From assembly GCF_019633745.1 (NCBI RefSeq), contig NZ_CP037968.1:248001-312000 (forward strand): a stretch of DNA of 64,000 bases, read 5' to 3'. Below the pieces are notes generated by a model that saw only the letters and a program-made list of their open reading frames with translations, searched no databases and had not been told where the DNA came from. Source of the stretch: Methanofollis formosanus (GTDB taxonomy: Archaea; Halobacteriota; Methanomicrobia; Methanomicrobiales; Methanofollaceae). The position numbers were made by a program, and so were the translations under genes. This document shows positions 52,694 to 61,207 of this stretch, piece after piece (the first letter of the stretch is position 1; the number at the start of each line of letters is the position of its first letter).

Positions 52694-54151
52694 GTGCCCG
52701 AGCAGTGTATATTCAGCATCCCCAACGATCGGGCATATCTGCCGCTGGTCAGGTCCGCCGTCGTCCACATCTCGTCCCGTGCCGGATGTAAAGAGGACGA
52801 GGCACGGGAGATTGCCCGGAGTGTCGAGGAAGCGGCCGCCCATATCATCGCCCATGCCTTCCCTGCCGGCGAGGGGAGTTCCCTCACGCTCGCCTGTGTA
52901 TGGTCCGGCGAGATGCTTGAGGTCTCTCTCAGGGAGAAGGGAGCACCCTACGACCCCGCCGTCGAGCCGCATCCCGATGGTCTCGGAAGGTGGCGGGAGG
53001 TGCTCGACGGTGTCTCGTTCCACAACCTCGGCACGGCGGGAAAAGAGACGCGGCTCTGGAAACGCCTCTCTCCACCGACACGAAAGGAAGTGACCGAGCC
53101 GGAGCATGGAGAGGCACATGAACCCGGCCGCCCGTTCGCCTGCGAGATCAGGCCGACGCGCATCGACGAGGCCGTGGAGATCACGCGGCGCGCCTACACC
53201 TGCTACGGCTACTCGTACGGCTACGAGGAGGTCTATTATCCCGACCACCTCAAAGATCTCATCAGGAGCGGACAACTCAGTTCGTTCGTCGCCGTGCACG
53301 AGGGCACGGTGATCGGCCACGCCGGTCTGCTCTTCGGGGACGATCCCGGCATTGCGGAGTTGTCGCTCGGGTTCGTGGACCCGCCTTTCCGCAAGCACGG
53401 GATCTTCAAGCGGTTGATGGCGACGACGGTGCACGAGGCCGAACGGCGGGGCCTCCTCGGGGTGACCGGGCAGGGCGTCTGCACGCACCCGTACTCGCAG
53501 AAGTCGGTCGCCTTCCTCGGCATGAGCGAGTGCTCCCTCCTCCTCTCCCATTATCCGGCGATGCAGTTTACGGGAATCGCCACGGAGAATCGGGTCAGGG
53601 AGAGTGTCGTGGTCCTGTACCGGTACCTGAGAAGACCTGAACGGCAGACCTTTTTTGTGCCCGCCCGCCACGAGGAGATGGTTCAGGAGATCTACCGGCG
53701 CCTCGGGGCCGCGCCCATCTTCGGGACGGCATGGGAGTGTCCGGCGCCGGGGAACGACGCCGGCACCGACCTCGAGGTGGAGACCGAACCCTACGGTTCG
53801 GCCAGGATCCGTGTCCGGTCCTATGGTGCCGGAACCCTCCCCGCTCTCAGGGCCGCCCTCCGCGACCTCTGCACCGGACGGCGGGAGGTCGTCTACCTCT
53901 CCCTCCCGCTCACCGACCCGATCACCCGATGGATCGCCGACACGATCGAGGAGATGGGTTTCTTCTTCGCCGGGGTGGAACCCTCCTCCACCGGCGACGA
54001 CCGTCTCCTCCTGCAGTACCTTAACAACCAGGTCGTCGACTATGACCGGGTGTTTCTCGGTTCTGCGTTCGGGGAAGAGATGAAGGAGTACATACGCCGG
54101 TGCGACCCCGCCGAGAGGGGTGAGGAGCGATCGATCGGATCGCTTCGGTGA
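52694..54151 (+). CDS. anti-sigma-kinase-like HATPase fused to GNAT acetyltransferase
   Basis: A 485-residue two-part protein. Residues 1-130 match the RsbW/SpoIIAB-like HATPase_c_2 domain: IPNDRAYLPLVRSAVVHISSRAGCKEDEAREIARSVEEAAAHIIAHAFPAGEGSSLTLACVWSGEMLEVSLREKGAPYDP, with an altered N-box (AAAHIIAHAF) and a DxG-type ligand site reduced to KGAPYDP. Residues about 150-300 are a GNAT domain (EIRPTRIDEAVEITRRAYTCYGYSYGYEEVYYPDHL...LGFVDPPFRKHGIFKRLMATTVHEAERRGLLGVTGQ). The C-terminal third is unassigned. The start is GTG 52694 with AAGGTGGT upstream. Archaea lack sigma factors, so the kinase-like domain must do something else. Confidence 0.85.
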   Translation: MPEQCIFSIPNDRAYLPLVRSAVVHISSRAGCKEDEAREIARSVEEAAAHIIAHAFPAGEGSSLTLACVWSGEMLEVSLREKGAPYDPAVEPHPDGLGRWREVLDGVSFHNLGTAGKETRLWKRLSPPTRKEVTEPEHGEAHEPGRPFACEIRPTRIDEAVEITRRAYTCYGYSYGYEEVYYPDHLKDLIRSGQLSSFVAVHEGTVIGHAGLLFGDDPGIAELSLGFVDPPFRKHGIFKRLMATTVHEAERRGLLGVTGQGVCTHPYSQKSVAFLGMSECSLLLSHYPAMQFTGIATENRVRESVVVLYRYLRRPERQTFFVPARHEEMVQEIYRRLGAAPIFGTAWECPAPGNDAGTDLEVETEPYGSARIRVRSYGAGTLPALRAALRDLCTGRREVVYLSLPLTDPITRWIADTIEEMGFFFAGVEPSSTGDDRLLLQYLNNQVVDYDRVFLGSAFGEEMKEYIRRCDPAERGEERSIGSLR

Positions 54152-54164
54152 ATGAGCGGATCTC

Positions 54165-54480
54165 AGCTCTGGAGAATCAGGCACGAACCCCGGGCTCATG
54201 CTGAATTACCATGAAAATGATCCCGAATATCGACCCTTGAGATTTTGATGGAGATTTGAAAACACCTGCACCAGGCACGACCCATCCGCAAAGAATAGAG
54301 GCGCCTTCTGAACAATTATTTCTCTGCCTTCCCGGCCCTATCTTCGTCCCGGGGGTCAGGGGGCGGCGATGGAACACGATCCCTACCGGTTCTTCCCTCT
54401 TGAAAAAGAGCGATCAAGCAAGGAGACATTTTCATCCCGTATCCTTGAGGCGTGCTTTCCCTTCATGTCGAATTCTACAG
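54165..54480 (+). repeat. composite intergenic element, copy 6
   Basis: After the HATPase-GNAT gene lie a piece related to element tails (TCTGGAGAATCAGGCACGAACCCCGGGCTCATG, 54170s) and a fused half-copy. Module B's start (about 54325, GCCTTCCCGGCCCTATCTTCGTCCC) joins directly to module A's end (GGGGGCGGC). The well-kept tail ACGATCCCTACCGGTTCTT...GAAAAAGAGCGATCAAGC follows, which recurs inverted at 60940-60990. The inner hairpin is lost. Positions 54480-54895 hold AT-rich promoter-like DNA for the MATE gene and nothing else recognised. Confidence 0.75.
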
Positions 54481-56320: not shown

Positions 56321-56659
56321 TCAGAGCAGTTTTGTCCCGGTGGTCGGCCGCGGCACCTTGACCACCAGCACCCTGAAGTCCCGGCCGGAGTCGTTGGACC
56401 ACCGGTGCGGGACTTTGGCCGGGCTCTCGACGAGATGGTCCTTGCTCACGTGCGCCTCTTCGTCGCCGATCTCGACGACGCCGGTCCCCTCGAGGACGTA
56501 GAAGAAGACGTCCACCGGCGTGATGTGCCGTTTCAGGGCCTCCCCGGGTTTGAGAGTGATCACGACACCGACGGCGTCTTTGGAGTCATAGACTTTTCTG
56601 GCGTCCACCTGATGGGGGTTGGGGTGGACCGGCACTTCTGCGATATTAACGATCTTCAT
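56321..56659 (-). CDS. single-domain cupin encoded with CooS
   Basis: A 112-residue protein of one cupin barrel: VGVVITLKPGEALKRHITPVDVFFYVLEGTGVVEIGDEEAHVSKDHLVESPAKVPHRWSNDSGRDFRVLVVKVPRP. It retains RHITPVDVFFYVLEGTG and PHRWxN, so metal-ligand His residues (H-x5-D/E, H) are present. It starts 16 bp after the CooS stop on the same strand and is probably co-transcribed. A role in CooS maturation or sensing is possible but unproven. Confidence 0.88.
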   Translation of the reverse strand: MKIVNIAEVPVHPNPHQVDARKVYDSKDAVGVVITLKPGEALKRHITPVDVFFYVLEGTGVVEIGDEEAHVSKDHLVESPAKVPHRWSNDSGRDFRVLVVKVPRPTTGTKLL

Positions 56660-56675
56660 CTCATTTCACCTCCTC

Positions 56676-58580
56676 TCAGATTCCAAGCCCCGCTCTCTTC
56701 TCCCTGATGTGTCCGGCGATCCCCTCGGCCGCCGCCGCGGCGTCTTTCTCGAGGGCAAGCACGCCGCCGGTGACATCCCGGATCCCGTCGGTGAGCAGGG
56801 CCACGAGGTCCGGCGCACCGGTCACCGGCGGGACCGGGTTGACGTAGGTGTACATCCCGAAGGCAAGGGCAAAGATGGCATCGATCGTCGCCTTCTGCTC
56901 CATGTATTCGGGCGCCGCCACCGCCACCGGGAGAGCGGTCACCGGCACCCCCCCGAGGGCGTCGGCGATCGTTGCGACGAGGTCGGCGCACCGGCCGGTG
57001 TCGGTGCAGGTGCCAAAGGAGAGGACCGGCGGGATGCCGAGCGCGGTGCAGATCTTCTTCAGCCCTGGCCCGGCCTCCGCGGCGGCCTCAGGCGAGCAGA
57101 GGCCCGCGACCTGCATCGCCGCGTTCCCGCAGCCCATCGAGAGGACGAGGATGTCGCGCTTGATCAGTTCTCTGGCCACCGCGACCGAGTGGACGTCCTG
57201 CCCGCTGTCCCGCAGGGTGGTGCAGGAGACGAGGGCGGTGACGCCCTGGATGCTCCCGTCCTTGATCGCGTCGAGGAGCGGAGCGAGACTTCCGCCGAGG
57301 GCGGCGACGATGCTCTCCGGCGAGAACCCGGCGACCGCCTCGCCCACCGGCAGACCGGCGAGCGGTTCGACGGTGCCGTGCCGCTCTTTGAAATTCTCGA
57401 TCCCCATCCGGAGCAACCCGGCCGCCTGCGCATCGGCCAGCACCGGGTCATAGTCCACCCGTTCCTCGACCCCCTCGAAGGCGACGAGTTCGGAGACCGG
57501 GACCAGCCTGAACCGGTACTTCTCCGCATACGCCGGGTCGAGCGGGAGCGAACAGTTCATGTCGGCCACAAAGACGTCGACCGCCCCGGTGGCGAGCACC
57601 GCCTCCTGCATGATCCAGTTGCCGGTATACCCCCAGAAGACCTCGTCCATCTTGAGACGCTGGACCATCTCCTGCCCGGTCTCGATGTTGGCGATGACCC
57701 GGATCCCCTTCGCCCCGACCTCCTCTGCCGCCGCCTGCCAGGCCGGGTCCCTGGCACGCTCCACCAGCGCGAACCCGAGGAAGGGTTCGTGGCCGTTCGG
57801 GAGGATGTTTACATAGTCGGCGTCCAGGACGCCGAGGTCGACCCGGATCGGGTGGGGCTTCGGCGTCCCGAAGAGGCAGTCCTGCAGGGCTTCGAGGACG
57901 ACCTGGCTCTGGTAGGCCATCGCCACCCCGAGGCGCAGCGCCTTTTTGGCGAGGGAGAGATAGAACCCGTCCACGTTCGTGAGGCACGAACTGGTGGTGC
58001 GCATCATCTCCCCATAGATCCCGCCAGGAAAGATCCCGAGGTCGCGCCAGACCTTCTTCCGTTCGGGCGGCGCCAGTCGTTCAACGATCACGCTCTCCTC
58101 CTCAGAGTGCCGGTGAAAGTCTTTCTCCAGGAAGTCGCAGAGGCGCAACGCCACCTCCGCATCCTCGCCGCCGGTCAGGACGCCAAGTCTTCTAGCAAAA
58201 TCTGCGAGTTTTTCAGGCTCCCGGATCCGGTACGGCGTCCTGCCGCGGGCCGTCTCCCGCAACGTCCGCACCGTCTGCTCGCAGTGATAGTGGTAGGTCG
58301 AAGCGCCCATCACGTTGCGCAGGAGCATCATCCGCATCGCCATCCCGTCGGCCGAGATCCCGCAGACCCCGCGTTTGTCCTGTGCCGCGTCGGCCCGGCA
58401 GGGGCCGTTGGAGCAGAAGTCGCAGCGGACGCCGCCGGTACAGAAGGCGCACCGTTGGTCCGGATCGCCGCCCAACCCCTGGGCCTCGTACCGGTCCCAG
58501 ACATTCGAGATGCCGTCTTTTTTCAGGCGTTCGTACGCCTTTTTCACCGACGCATGATATGAGATCCGTTCTGGTTCCAT
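56676..58580 (-). CDS. cooS: anaerobic CO dehydrogenase catalytic subunit, divergent
   Basis: A 634-residue CooS-family protein. The N-terminus has C44xxC47 (D-cluster-type site at the dimer interface, in CxxC rather than Cx7C spacing) and C53, C56, C61, C73 (B cluster). C-cluster counterparts seen are H264 (NGHEPFL), C343 (DMNCSLP), C453 (VSCTT), C484 (SMGCGN), C525 (SFGTC) and K563 (EQKAT). Where canonical enzymes have the CCTGNE cysteine that binds the unique iron, this protein reads ANIETGQE (residues 297-304), so that ligand is absent. No CooF or ACS subunit lies nearby. Ordinary CO oxidation is doubtful; a related NiFe-S or hybrid-cluster-like reaction is possible. The cupin gene follows. 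Confidence 0.85.
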   Translation of the reverse strand: MEPERISYHASVKKAYERLKKDGISNVWDRYEAQGLGGDPDQRCAFCTGGVRCDFCSNGPCRADAAQDKRGVCGISADGMAMRMMLLRNVMGASTYHYHCEQTVRTLRETARGRTPYRIREPEKLADFARRLGVLTGGEDAEVALRLCDFLEKDFHRHSEEESVIVERLAPPERKKVWRDLGIFPGGIYGEMMRTTSSCLTNVDGFYLSLAKKALRLGVAMAYQSQVVLEALQDCLFGTPKPHPIRVDLGVLDADYVNILPNGHEPFLGFALVERARDPAWQAAAEEVGAKGIRVIANIETGQEMVQRLKMDEVFWGYTGNWIMQEAVLATGAVDVFVADMNCSLPLDPAYAEKYRFRLVPVSELVAFEGVEERVDYDPVLADAQAAGLLRMGIENFKERHGTVEPLAGLPVGEAVAGFSPESIVAALGGSLAPLLDAIKDGSIQGVTALVSCTTLRDSGQDVHSVAVARELIKRDILVLSMGCGNAAMQVAGLCSPEAAAEAGPGLKKICTALGIPPVLSFGTCTDTGRCADLVATIADALGGVPVTALPVAVAAPEYMEQKATIDAIFALAFGMYTYVNPVPPVTGAPDLVALLTDGIRDVTGGVLALEKDAAAAAEGIAGHIREKRAGLGI

Positions 58581-58661: not shown

Positions 58662-60035
58662 TCACCCGACCCGGCGGATCGGGGGGAGGAGGTATGAACC
58701 GTCCAGGACCGCCCGGTCCGGCTGGTACATCCGCATGATCGGCCTGAACGCCTCTTCCGGCGCCGGCAACCAGTTCGATTCCTTCTCCGGGCCCGGCGAG
58801 TCGTGCTGGATATAGATGTCGAGCGAACCGTCGTCATGATACTTCAGTCCGGGTGTCCGGTCGCCGATGGAATAGCGGCCGAGAGGGTTTTCGACCAGCA
58901 TATAGTCGGGCGAGGAGTACATCGTCACCGACCAGAAGGCGCCGACCGGCGGGAGGCGGTCGAAGTGGAGGAGGTAGCGGCGTTCGCCGGTGAGGAGTTC
59001 GCCGGTGACGTCCTCGTAGGTCCATGGATACGCCGCCTCGTAGCCGTGGTTGCCGAAGAGCCCGGCCCGTGCCGCCGCCGCACGGCGCATGAAGTCCTCG
59101 GTGGTCCAGGACTCTTCCTGCACCGTCCCGACCTCGAAGAAACGGGTGTTGTAGTCCCAGAGGTGCGTGGTGTACAGCCATCCGTTGATCTTGGGGAGGG
59201 AGGTCCTGATGTACGCCCGGATCGCTTTCTCGGCCGCCATCCGGCCCATCGTCAGCGCCGCGGCGATCTCGGGTTCGGGATCGAGGTACGGGCTCTTCGG
59301 ATCGGTGAGCCCCAGGGGAGCGAAGCGGTCGAGGAACTCGCGCTCCCCGGCAGGGGGCGGGTAGGCCTGCATCCAGACCCGCATCTCCTCCCAGACCAGG
59401 AGGTCGGCCCTGACGCCCGGACGGGGGGCGGGCAGTGGCCAGTCTCCGGGGCGCCGTTCTCCGGCGTCCCGGGCGGGCCCGGGCCAGGCGCGGAGCGGGG
59501 CGAGGGTATACTGCTGCTGAAGGGCACGGACGGCGGGCACGTCCCCCGGTCCGTTCACCGCCGTCCGCCCGATGATGCCCACAAGATCGGTCGGCGCCCT
59601 GACCATGGTCATGCCCTCCGGGAGACTTCCCTCCCATCCGGGCCCGACAAGGGCATAGGCACCCTCCTCTGTCCCGGTCCCCCGCCGGCCGATATAGGCG
59701 AAGTTGTTCGTCCAGGCGTCCACGCACTGCATGACATAGTAGCGCCCCTGGGTGTCGGGGACATGGAGGACCATCGGTTCGGGCCCGAGGTCGACGACCG
59801 CGACCGAGTACAGGGTGTCGTTGTTGGGCGAGACCACCTGCCTGAACGCAGGATCGAGCAACCGGTCGGCGTGCCAGAAGGTGTTCACCGGGGCACCCAT
59901 CCCCCCCTCAACCCCGCGGGCCATCTTCATCATGGTGCGGACGCACTCGGTCAGCGGGTAGCCGTACAGATAGGCCTCCCCTGCCAGGTCGACAAGTTCC
60001 TCATATCTCCTCTCTTCTGCCAGTACCGCTCTCAT
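58662..60035 (-). CDS. DUF1254/DUF1214 protein
   Basis: A 457-residue protein. The N-terminal DUF1254 domain (AYLYGYPLTECVRTMMKMARG...VNTFWHADRLLDPAFRQVVSPNNDTLYSVAVVDLGPEPMVLHVPDTQGRYYVMQCVDAWTNNFAYIGRR) joins a C-terminal DUF1214 domain (AAYPWTYEDVTGELLTGERRYLLHFD..PPVGAFWSVTMYSSPDYMLVENPLGRYSIGDRTPGLKYHDDGSLDIYIQHDSPG...NWLPAP). The family is common in bacteria and fungi and scattered in archaea; the biochemical role is unknown. There is no evident signal peptide. It is in the same direction as CooS, 81 bp upstream of it. Confidence 0.92.
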   Translation of the reverse strand: MRAVLAEERRYEELVDLAGEAYLYGYPLTECVRTMMKMARGVEGGMGAPVNTFWHADRLLDPAFRQVVSPNNDTLYSVAVVDLGPEPMVLHVPDTQGRYYVMQCVDAWTNNFAYIGRRGTGTEEGAYALVGPGWEGSLPEGMTMVRAPTDLVGIIGRTAVNGPGDVPAVRALQQQYTLAPLRAWPGPARDAGERRPGDWPLPAPRPGVRADLLVWEEMRVWMQAYPPPAGEREFLDRFAPLGLTDPKSPYLDPEPEIAAALTMGRMAAEKAIRAYIRTSLPKINGWLYTTHLWDYNTRFFEVGTVQEESWTTEDFMRRAAAARAGLFGNHGYEAAYPWTYEDVTGELLTGERRYLLHFDRLPPVGAFWSVTMYSSPDYMLVENPLGRYSIGDRTPGLKYHDDGSLDIYIQHDSPGPEKESNWLPAPEEAFRPIMRMYQPDRAVLDGSYLLPPIRRVG

Positions 60036-60879: not shown

Positions 60880-61207
60880 TGGCTCTGGAGAATCGGGCAC
60901 GAACTCCCGGCTCAAGCATACCGGATGAAAATATCTCGTCGCTTGATCGCTCTTTTTCAAGACTAAAGAACCGGTAGGGATCGTGTTCAATCGCCGCCTC
61001 CCCCTATCGTCGTCGTGGGAGGGGCCGGGGGGCAACGCCCCCCGGAGCAAGATTCCAGGAAAGAATCTGCGATGGGGGCGGCCCGTCTGATCATCGTGCC
61101 TTCCCACACCATACGCACCGGGGGCTCTTCGAAGATCAAAGATCTTCTCAAACTCGCTATCGCTCGCAGCCACCGGACCCCCGGGATGGCGATAGGGGAG
61201 GGAAGGC
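60880..61207 (-). repeat. composite intergenic element, copy 7 (inverted)
   Basis: On the minus strand, in order: module B (61207 to 61098, arms GCCTTCCC/GGGAAGGC, enlarged to 110 bp by a centre containing GAAGATC-AAA-GATCTTC). A 15-bp spacer then leads to module A (61082 to 60993, inner CCGGGGGGC/GCCCCCCGG with loop AAC on the plus strand, 61025-61045). The tail with GATCCCTACCGGTTCTT and AAAGAGCGATCAAGC runs to about 60880. It is oriented with the upstream DHA2 exporter gene (minus). 61208-61363 shows nothing else. Confidence 0.85.

Follow-up and report, generated by a model that had tools for sequence, protein, structure and literature searches.

A CooS-V-type protein of Methanofollis formosanus with a predicted hybrid cluster and a probable cupin partner

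Does a protein that automatic annotation names the catalytic subunit of a carbon monoxide dehydrogenase (CODH), with another residue in the place of one of the active-site cysteines, act on CO, and if it does not, what might it do instead? The question is raised by a gene at positions 56676–58580 of the stretch of Methanofollis formosanus DNA analysed here, 64,000 nucleotides in all and hereafter called the window. An original prediction had described the gene as encoding a CooS homologue without a canonical C-cluster cysteine, and had suggested that the enzyme, though like CODH, might differ from it in cluster or in reaction. Its coordinates hold; the strand, which it did not give, is minus. 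It was also right about the altered position, and missed two points: a glutamate ligand replaces the cysteine, and the neighbouring cupin is found beside such genes in several phyla.

Active-site residues of the window protein

The open reading frame has an ATG start codon and a product of 634 aa. The protein scores 717.9 bits against TIGR01702, the NCBIfam model of the anaerobic CODH catalytic subunit (cut-off 478) and the source of the CODH name, and 460.9 bits against PF03063; its assignment as a CooS-V-type protein draws further on the best PDB match and the clade described below. The altered segment reads IRVIANIETGQEMVQR. In an alignment with seven CCTGNE-bearing CODHs from related genomes, Glu300 (codon 57681–57683, minus strand) falls on the second cysteine of the motif, Cys295, a column that is Cys in 7/7 of these rows. 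No cysteine lies elsewhere in the segment, so that the missing ligand noted in the original prediction is not merely displaced. Position 300 is Glu in 103/103 sequences, comprising the window protein and 102 homologues from archaea and bacteria, near-duplicate genomes included. Compared with three Methanofollis relatives, the gene is under purifying selection (dN 0.032–0.039, dS 0.22–0.39, dN/dS about 0.10–0.15). The fixed glutamate and this selection indicate that the change from Cys to Glu is neither chance nor a sequencing error.

The remaining ligands were identified in an alignment of the window protein with CooS-V of Carboxydothermus hydrogenoformans (CooS-V_Ch), 17 CODHs (15 from genomes, two taken over from PDB alignments) and eight HCPs. 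The CooS-V_Ch ligands His259, Cys338, Cys449, Cys480, Cys521 and Glu556 correspond to His264 (codon 57789–57791; invariant in both alignments), Cys343 (in the Asn342-Cys343 codons, 57552–57557), Cys453 (57222–57224), Cys484 (57129–57131), Cys525 (57006–57008) and Glu561 (56898–56900; Glu in 102/103 rows, the exception being one truncated row), all on the minus strand. Cys521 is reported to be the persulfide cysteine of CooS-V_Ch (PMC9311411), and Glu300 takes the place of its Glu295. With Glu300, Asn342 and Lys563, every active-site residue of CooS-V_Ch is present. The His and most of the Cys ligands had thus been recognised correctly beforehand (H264, C343, C453, C484 and C525), and the Ni,Fe-CODH set of five Cys and one His is incomplete, with Cys295 replaced. 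Two further columns separate HCP from CODH: that of Asn342 is Asn in 8/8 HCPs and Gln in 17/17 CODHs, and that of Glu561 is Glu in 8/8 HCPs and Ser, Thr or His in 17/17 CODHs.

Near the N terminus, Cys44 and Cys47 of the [2Fe-2S] D-cluster and Cys53, 56, 61 and 73 of the [4Fe-4S] B-cluster (58362–58451, minus strand) are invariant in 103/103 sequences. The D-cluster motif, C44-x2-C47-x5-C53, follows the type III pattern, which is marked by an extra cysteine (Cys41 in the family description). This C-x2-C-x5-C pattern is given as a trait of structural group D-1, under which the Glu exchange itself is also listed (Inoue et al. 2019, PMC6344411).

Membership of the CooS-V family and genome content

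By sequence, the top PDB match is CooS-V_Ch (7b7q; E 3.4e-202, 676.5 bits), followed by a true CODH at 383.2 bits; identity to CooS-V_Ch is 51% (321/624). The AlphaFold2 model of the window protein (mean pLDDT 84.8, pTM 0.89; low confidence at residues 46–60, in the N-terminal Cys region) retrieved CooS-V structures first in a structure search, with a TM score of 0.95 and 51% identity. In a phylogenetic tree, the Glu295-type proteins, including the window protein and CooS-V_Ch, form one branch with a support of 99/100, the outcome of the phylogenetic check that had been proposed for this protein. CooS-V_Ch is a long branch whose exact place is less sure, and a widespread sub-branch apart from it holds 41 of the 42 Glu-type rows, the window protein among them. 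We conclude with high confidence that the window protein is a CooS-V (clade D, structural group D-1) hybrid-cluster protein, a new member of a described family. A divergent HCP was also considered, and was rejected by score (29.1 bits against the HCP model, cut-off 360.8) and by the tree.

Much is reported for this family. CooS-V_Ch carries the same Cys-to-Glu exchange and is Ni-free, with a [4Fe-3S-nO] hybrid cluster whose arrangement changes with redox state (Jeoung et al. 2022, PMC9311411). According to the same source it catalyses neither CO oxidation nor CO2 reduction, its hydroxylamine reduction is very slow and its NO reduction does not exceed background; its redox potentials lie about 300 mV below those of HCP, and the authors propose a different function. 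The C295E variant of CODH-II is reported there to be Ni-deficient and inactive with CO. A 2026 marine survey strips such sequences from its CODH counts (PMC13240472). The earlier idea of a different cluster or reaction is therefore supported by CooS-V_Ch, which has 51% identity, the same ligands and a place in the same clade; it was right but not new, since a different cluster and the lack of a CO reaction are already established for the CooS-V family.

The origin of the family has been described in two ways: as derived from CODH (PMC9311411), and as an ancestor between HCP and CODH, with a Glu295 called unique to the C. hydrogenoformans protein (PMC10502027). This residue is not unique to that protein, being fixed in 103/103 sequences. 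Our tree separates the Glu-type proteins and the CODHs into two branches; built without Cys-bearing clade D sequences, it is not rooted well enough to decide between an intermediate ancestor and a derivative of CODH.

A PF03063 search over the whole genome (one contig, 2.97 Mb, 99% complete) detected two genes only, the CooS-V gene and a classical HCP gene at contig position 240816. Neither CdhA, CooS nor any other CODH was found by this search, although in related genomes it does bring up additional matches of CODH length. In three related genomes (G005, G034 and G049) CooS-V is the sole PF03063 match. These four genomes therefore do not fit the claim, a reported tendency and not a structural criterion, that CooS-V is confined to genomes with another CODH (PMC9311411), and the presence of CooS-V without another CODH argues against a role in C1 metabolism. 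Mutual exclusion of CooS-V and HCP is unsupported in Methanomicrobiales, as both occur together in several genomes. Outside the window and about 7 kb upstream, the classical hcp gene of this genome (locus L134, 8350–10442) stands head-to-head with a regulator gene that looks HxlR-type by eye.

Cupin and FrdX-type neighbours of CooS-V and HCP

On the same strand as the CooS-V gene and starting 16 bases downstream of it, a gene at 56321–56659 encodes a small Cupin_2 protein of 112 aa (PF07883, 57.8 bits; our family A), preceded by a AGGAGGTGA-like ribosome-binding site (read by eye). Conserved residues of the family are H16, H45, D50 and H85. The coupling to a small cupin noted earlier is thus confirmed; the window genome holds no second cupin A copy, and the cupin is a probable operon partner of CooS-V. 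As also stated in the original prediction, there is no CooF or ACS among the window neighbours scanned, nor did we find C1 genes among them.

Other features of the locus were noted in passing. A gene for a DUF1254/DUF1214 protein (58662–60035, minus strand like CooS-V) precedes CooS-V by 81 bases; it adjoins CooS-V in close Methanofollis only and was rejected as a partner. A pair of 101-base inverted repeats (54359–54459 and 60901–61001; 86% complementary, 6.4 kb apart) brackets the MATE-cupin-CooS-V-DUF1254-PIN stretch, and possibly represents copies of a small repeat element. An unusual domain combination occurs in the ORF at 52694–54151 (plus strand), where a GNAT acetyltransferase domain (PF00583) is joined to an anti-sigma-type HATPase domain (PF13581).

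To survey the neighbourhood more widely, we clustered the ORFs flanking 100 CooS-V loci (80 + 20), using mechanically called ORFs and ignoring antisense shadow families; removal of two near-identical loci left 98 non-redundant loci, that of the window included. Profiles were made for four recurring families: cupin A, cupin B, a protein of roughly 260 aa with [4Fe-4S] domains (family F) and a flavodoxin-like protein. Family F corresponds by domain content and position to FrdX; we take the name from this context and not from a match to an established FrdX. In the 6 kb around CooS-V, a cupin A or B occurs at 42 of the 98 loci, FrdX at 22 and either at 59; within 1.4 kb, the counts are 30, 17 and 45. 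The other 39 loci, some of them on short contigs and all eight Methanosarcina loci among them, have neither cupin nor FrdX within the wider distance. As a control, the 1.5-kb flanks of 15 true CODH loci (L154 left out as the same gene as L150) contained a cupin A or B in 0/15 cases, and one gave a weak FrdX match (29 bits, short of the 60 bits required at the CooS-V loci). The difference in cupin or FrdX occurrence, 45/98 for CooS-V within 1.4 kb versus 0/15 for true CODH, has a Fisher p of 0.0003 in a test that ignores relatedness.

The arrangement of the cupin varies. It lies 18–20 bp downstream of CooS-V in one Methanofollis group and divergently upstream in another, 1.2–3.2 kb downstream in Methanoculleus, and upstream and co-directional in Actinomycetota. 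Such lineage differences in orientation and spacing speak against mere inheritance of one arrangement. Two further neighbours were seen. The flavodoxin-like protein (about 204 aa) occurs within 6 kb of CooS-V at 16/98 loci from eight groups, including Loki-, WOR-3 and Dehalococcoidia, and may be another redox partner. A regulator of about 155 aa, judged PadR-like by eye, stands upstream of CooS-V on the opposite strand at six loci from five actinobacterial groups (L049, L054, L055, L060 and others).

The same accessory families are found beside HCP. The 119 Methanosarcinia genomes examined contain 92 cupin A copies. For 51 of these an HCP gene is no more than 3 kb away, always on the same strand and in 43 cases with the cupin directly downstream; most of the gaps measure 26–172 bp. 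The other 41 copies have no HCP nearby. Five HCP-linked cupins that were aligned are 54–57% identical to the window cupin. The link is weaker in Methanomicrobiales, where 15 of 51 cupin A copies are near CooS-V and one is near HCP. In 55 genomes from the class to which a Desulfobacterales genome belongs, FrdX was found in the 1.5-kb flanks of 16/30 HCP loci, once followed by a cupin; here as in Methanosarcinia, the 30 HCP loci taken were mostly the best-scoring ones and not a random draw. Cupin B occurs beside HCP once, weakly (L183, 40 bits). Across 38 CooS-V genomes reached through the loci, HCP exceeded its cut-off in 4 and FrdX (E ≤ 1e-20, some matches partial) was present in 30, including 27 of the 34 genomes in which HCP was not found, many of which are incomplete metagenome assemblies. 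The window genome gave no FrdX match, so FrdX is not a partner there.

These observations agree with what is described for HCP in bacteria such as Desulfovibrio. FrdX is reported as a ferredoxin-like protein in operons with hcp under the control of HcpR (PMC1274295), and the cupin gene Ddes_1828 of D. desulfuricans adjoins hcp and is NO-induced together with it (PMC5701242); we liken Ddes_1828 to the cupins described here by annotation and position, not by sequence. In the open-licence literature that we searched, only Desulfovibrio papers place a cupin beside hcp, and a link between CooS and a cupin did not appear. A 2026 eLife survey of CODH neighbourhoods reports no clear pattern for clade D, with 64% of genes solitary, and its main text has 0 occurrences of cupins (PMC13056359). 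The association of CooS-V with cupin and FrdX therefore appears to be the new part of this work, unreported in that literature.

Proposed function and comparison with known systems

From the residues, the clade, the match in fold and the genes around CooS-V observed here, we consider it likely that the protein is a CooS-V-type hybrid-cluster enzyme and not a CO dehydrogenase, most likely a reductase and probably co-expressed with the cupin. To judge from the CooS-V_Ch crystal structure, it would have the CODH fold and form a homodimer, and His264, Glu300, Cys343, Cys453, Cys484, Cys525 and Glu561 would hold a nickel-free [4Fe-3S-nO] hybrid cluster. Electrons would enter via the [2Fe-2S] D-cluster and the [4Fe-4S] B-cluster, and the enzyme would, like HCP, reduce at low potential some small oxidised compound, for which NO, hydroxylamine or another nitrogen oxide is the most probable candidate. 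The co-expressed, metal-binding cupin might have an accessory role in substrate binding or sensing, which is a guess; in other lineages, the FrdX-type ferredoxin protein nearby could supply electrons.

That CooS-V and HCP, as separate lineages, have operon partners in common suggests an HCP-like role in N-oxide or NO reduction. Considered on its own, this role seems to us about evenly balanced, and an involvement of the cupin, to which the same partners point, is moderately probable. The main result against an HCP-like role is the weak in vitro activity of CooS-V_Ch, which the absence of the native donor or of the cupin could explain. The separate HCP and the absence of FrdX in the window genome also count against it, as do the 39 CooS-V loci with neither neighbour, the weak cupin A linkage in Methanomicrobiales and the 41 Methanosarcinia copies distant from HCP. 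More tentatively, HCP and CooS-V may have independently recruited the same accessories, a metal-binding cupin and an FrdX-type [4Fe-4S] ferredoxin. In many anaerobes, archaeal and bacterial, CooS-V might then take the part of HCP in a nitrosative-stress module, often where the genome yielded no HCP, and the cupin might be a third component that hybrid-cluster biochemistry has overlooked.

An alternative to which we give somewhat less than an even chance is a hybrid-cluster enzyme with a substrate other than nitrogen oxides, for example peroxide, a sulfur species or a redox signal, with common neighbours that reflect general redox stress. The weak hydroxylamine activity, the lack of NO activity and the low potentials reported for CooS-V_Ch (PMC9311411) would fit, as would the report of a methanogen with a high HCP level and no NO source, which leaves even the role of HCP open (PMC10210160); by contrast, the cupin and FrdX partners common to CooS-V and HCP, and the NO induction of the hcp-linked cupin gene in Desulfovibrio (PMC5701242), favour nitrogen oxides. 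A working Ni-CODH with Glu in the place of Cys295 is very improbable: although all other C-cluster ligands and the acid–base Lys563 are kept and the NCBIfam name is CODH, CooS-V_Ch, whose ligand set does not differ, is Ni-free and CO-inactive, the CODH-II C295E variant loses both Ni and activity (PMC9311411), and the genome search and the scanned neighbours gave neither another CODH nor C1 genes. A degenerate, functionless CODH that has lost a ligand would suit surroundings with no C1 link among the scanned neighbours, but we dismiss it in view of the full-length ORF, the low dN/dS, a glutamate fixed in all 103 archaeal and bacterial sequences, and family-specific residues in common with HCP.

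Automatic naming of these genes as CODH, here through TIGR01702, would wrongly credit their hosts, this methanogen for example, with CO metabolism. From the cupin and FrdX associations in common with HCP follow a hypothesis that can be tested directly and a possible electron donor for CooS-V.

Among known systems, CooS-V_Ch (PDB 7B7Q, 7B7T, 7B95, 7B97 and 7B9A) is like the window protein in identity, fold, complete ligand set, D-cluster type and clade; the window protein differs in being archaeal, in belonging to the widespread sub-branch, in its probable operon with a cupin and in having no other CODH found in its genome. With the Ni,Fe-CODHs (CooS, clades C/E/F) it has in common the fold, the B- and D-clusters and five of six C-cluster ligands; unlike them, it has Glu300, Asn342 and Glu561 and no Cys295, is only 32–37% identical to those compared and lies among scanned neighbours with no CODH maturation or C1 genes. 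HCP is a separate subfamily, about 20–24% identical over parts, with a Glu268 (THGEM segment) that is not in the column of Glu300, whereas the window protein has a CODH-type D-cluster and falls below the HCP model cut-off; common to both are the expected cluster type, Asn342, Glu561-Gln562-Lys563 and, for the two families, cupin and FrdX neighbours. From the hcp-frdX operon or HcpR regulon of anaerobic bacteria, the window locus differs in having CooS-V in place of HCP and no FrdX in its genome; of the HCP-type operon traits it has the cupin A neighbour and not the FrdX neighbour, and the likeness of the two systems lies in a small cupin and an FrdX-like protein near a hybrid-cluster gene.
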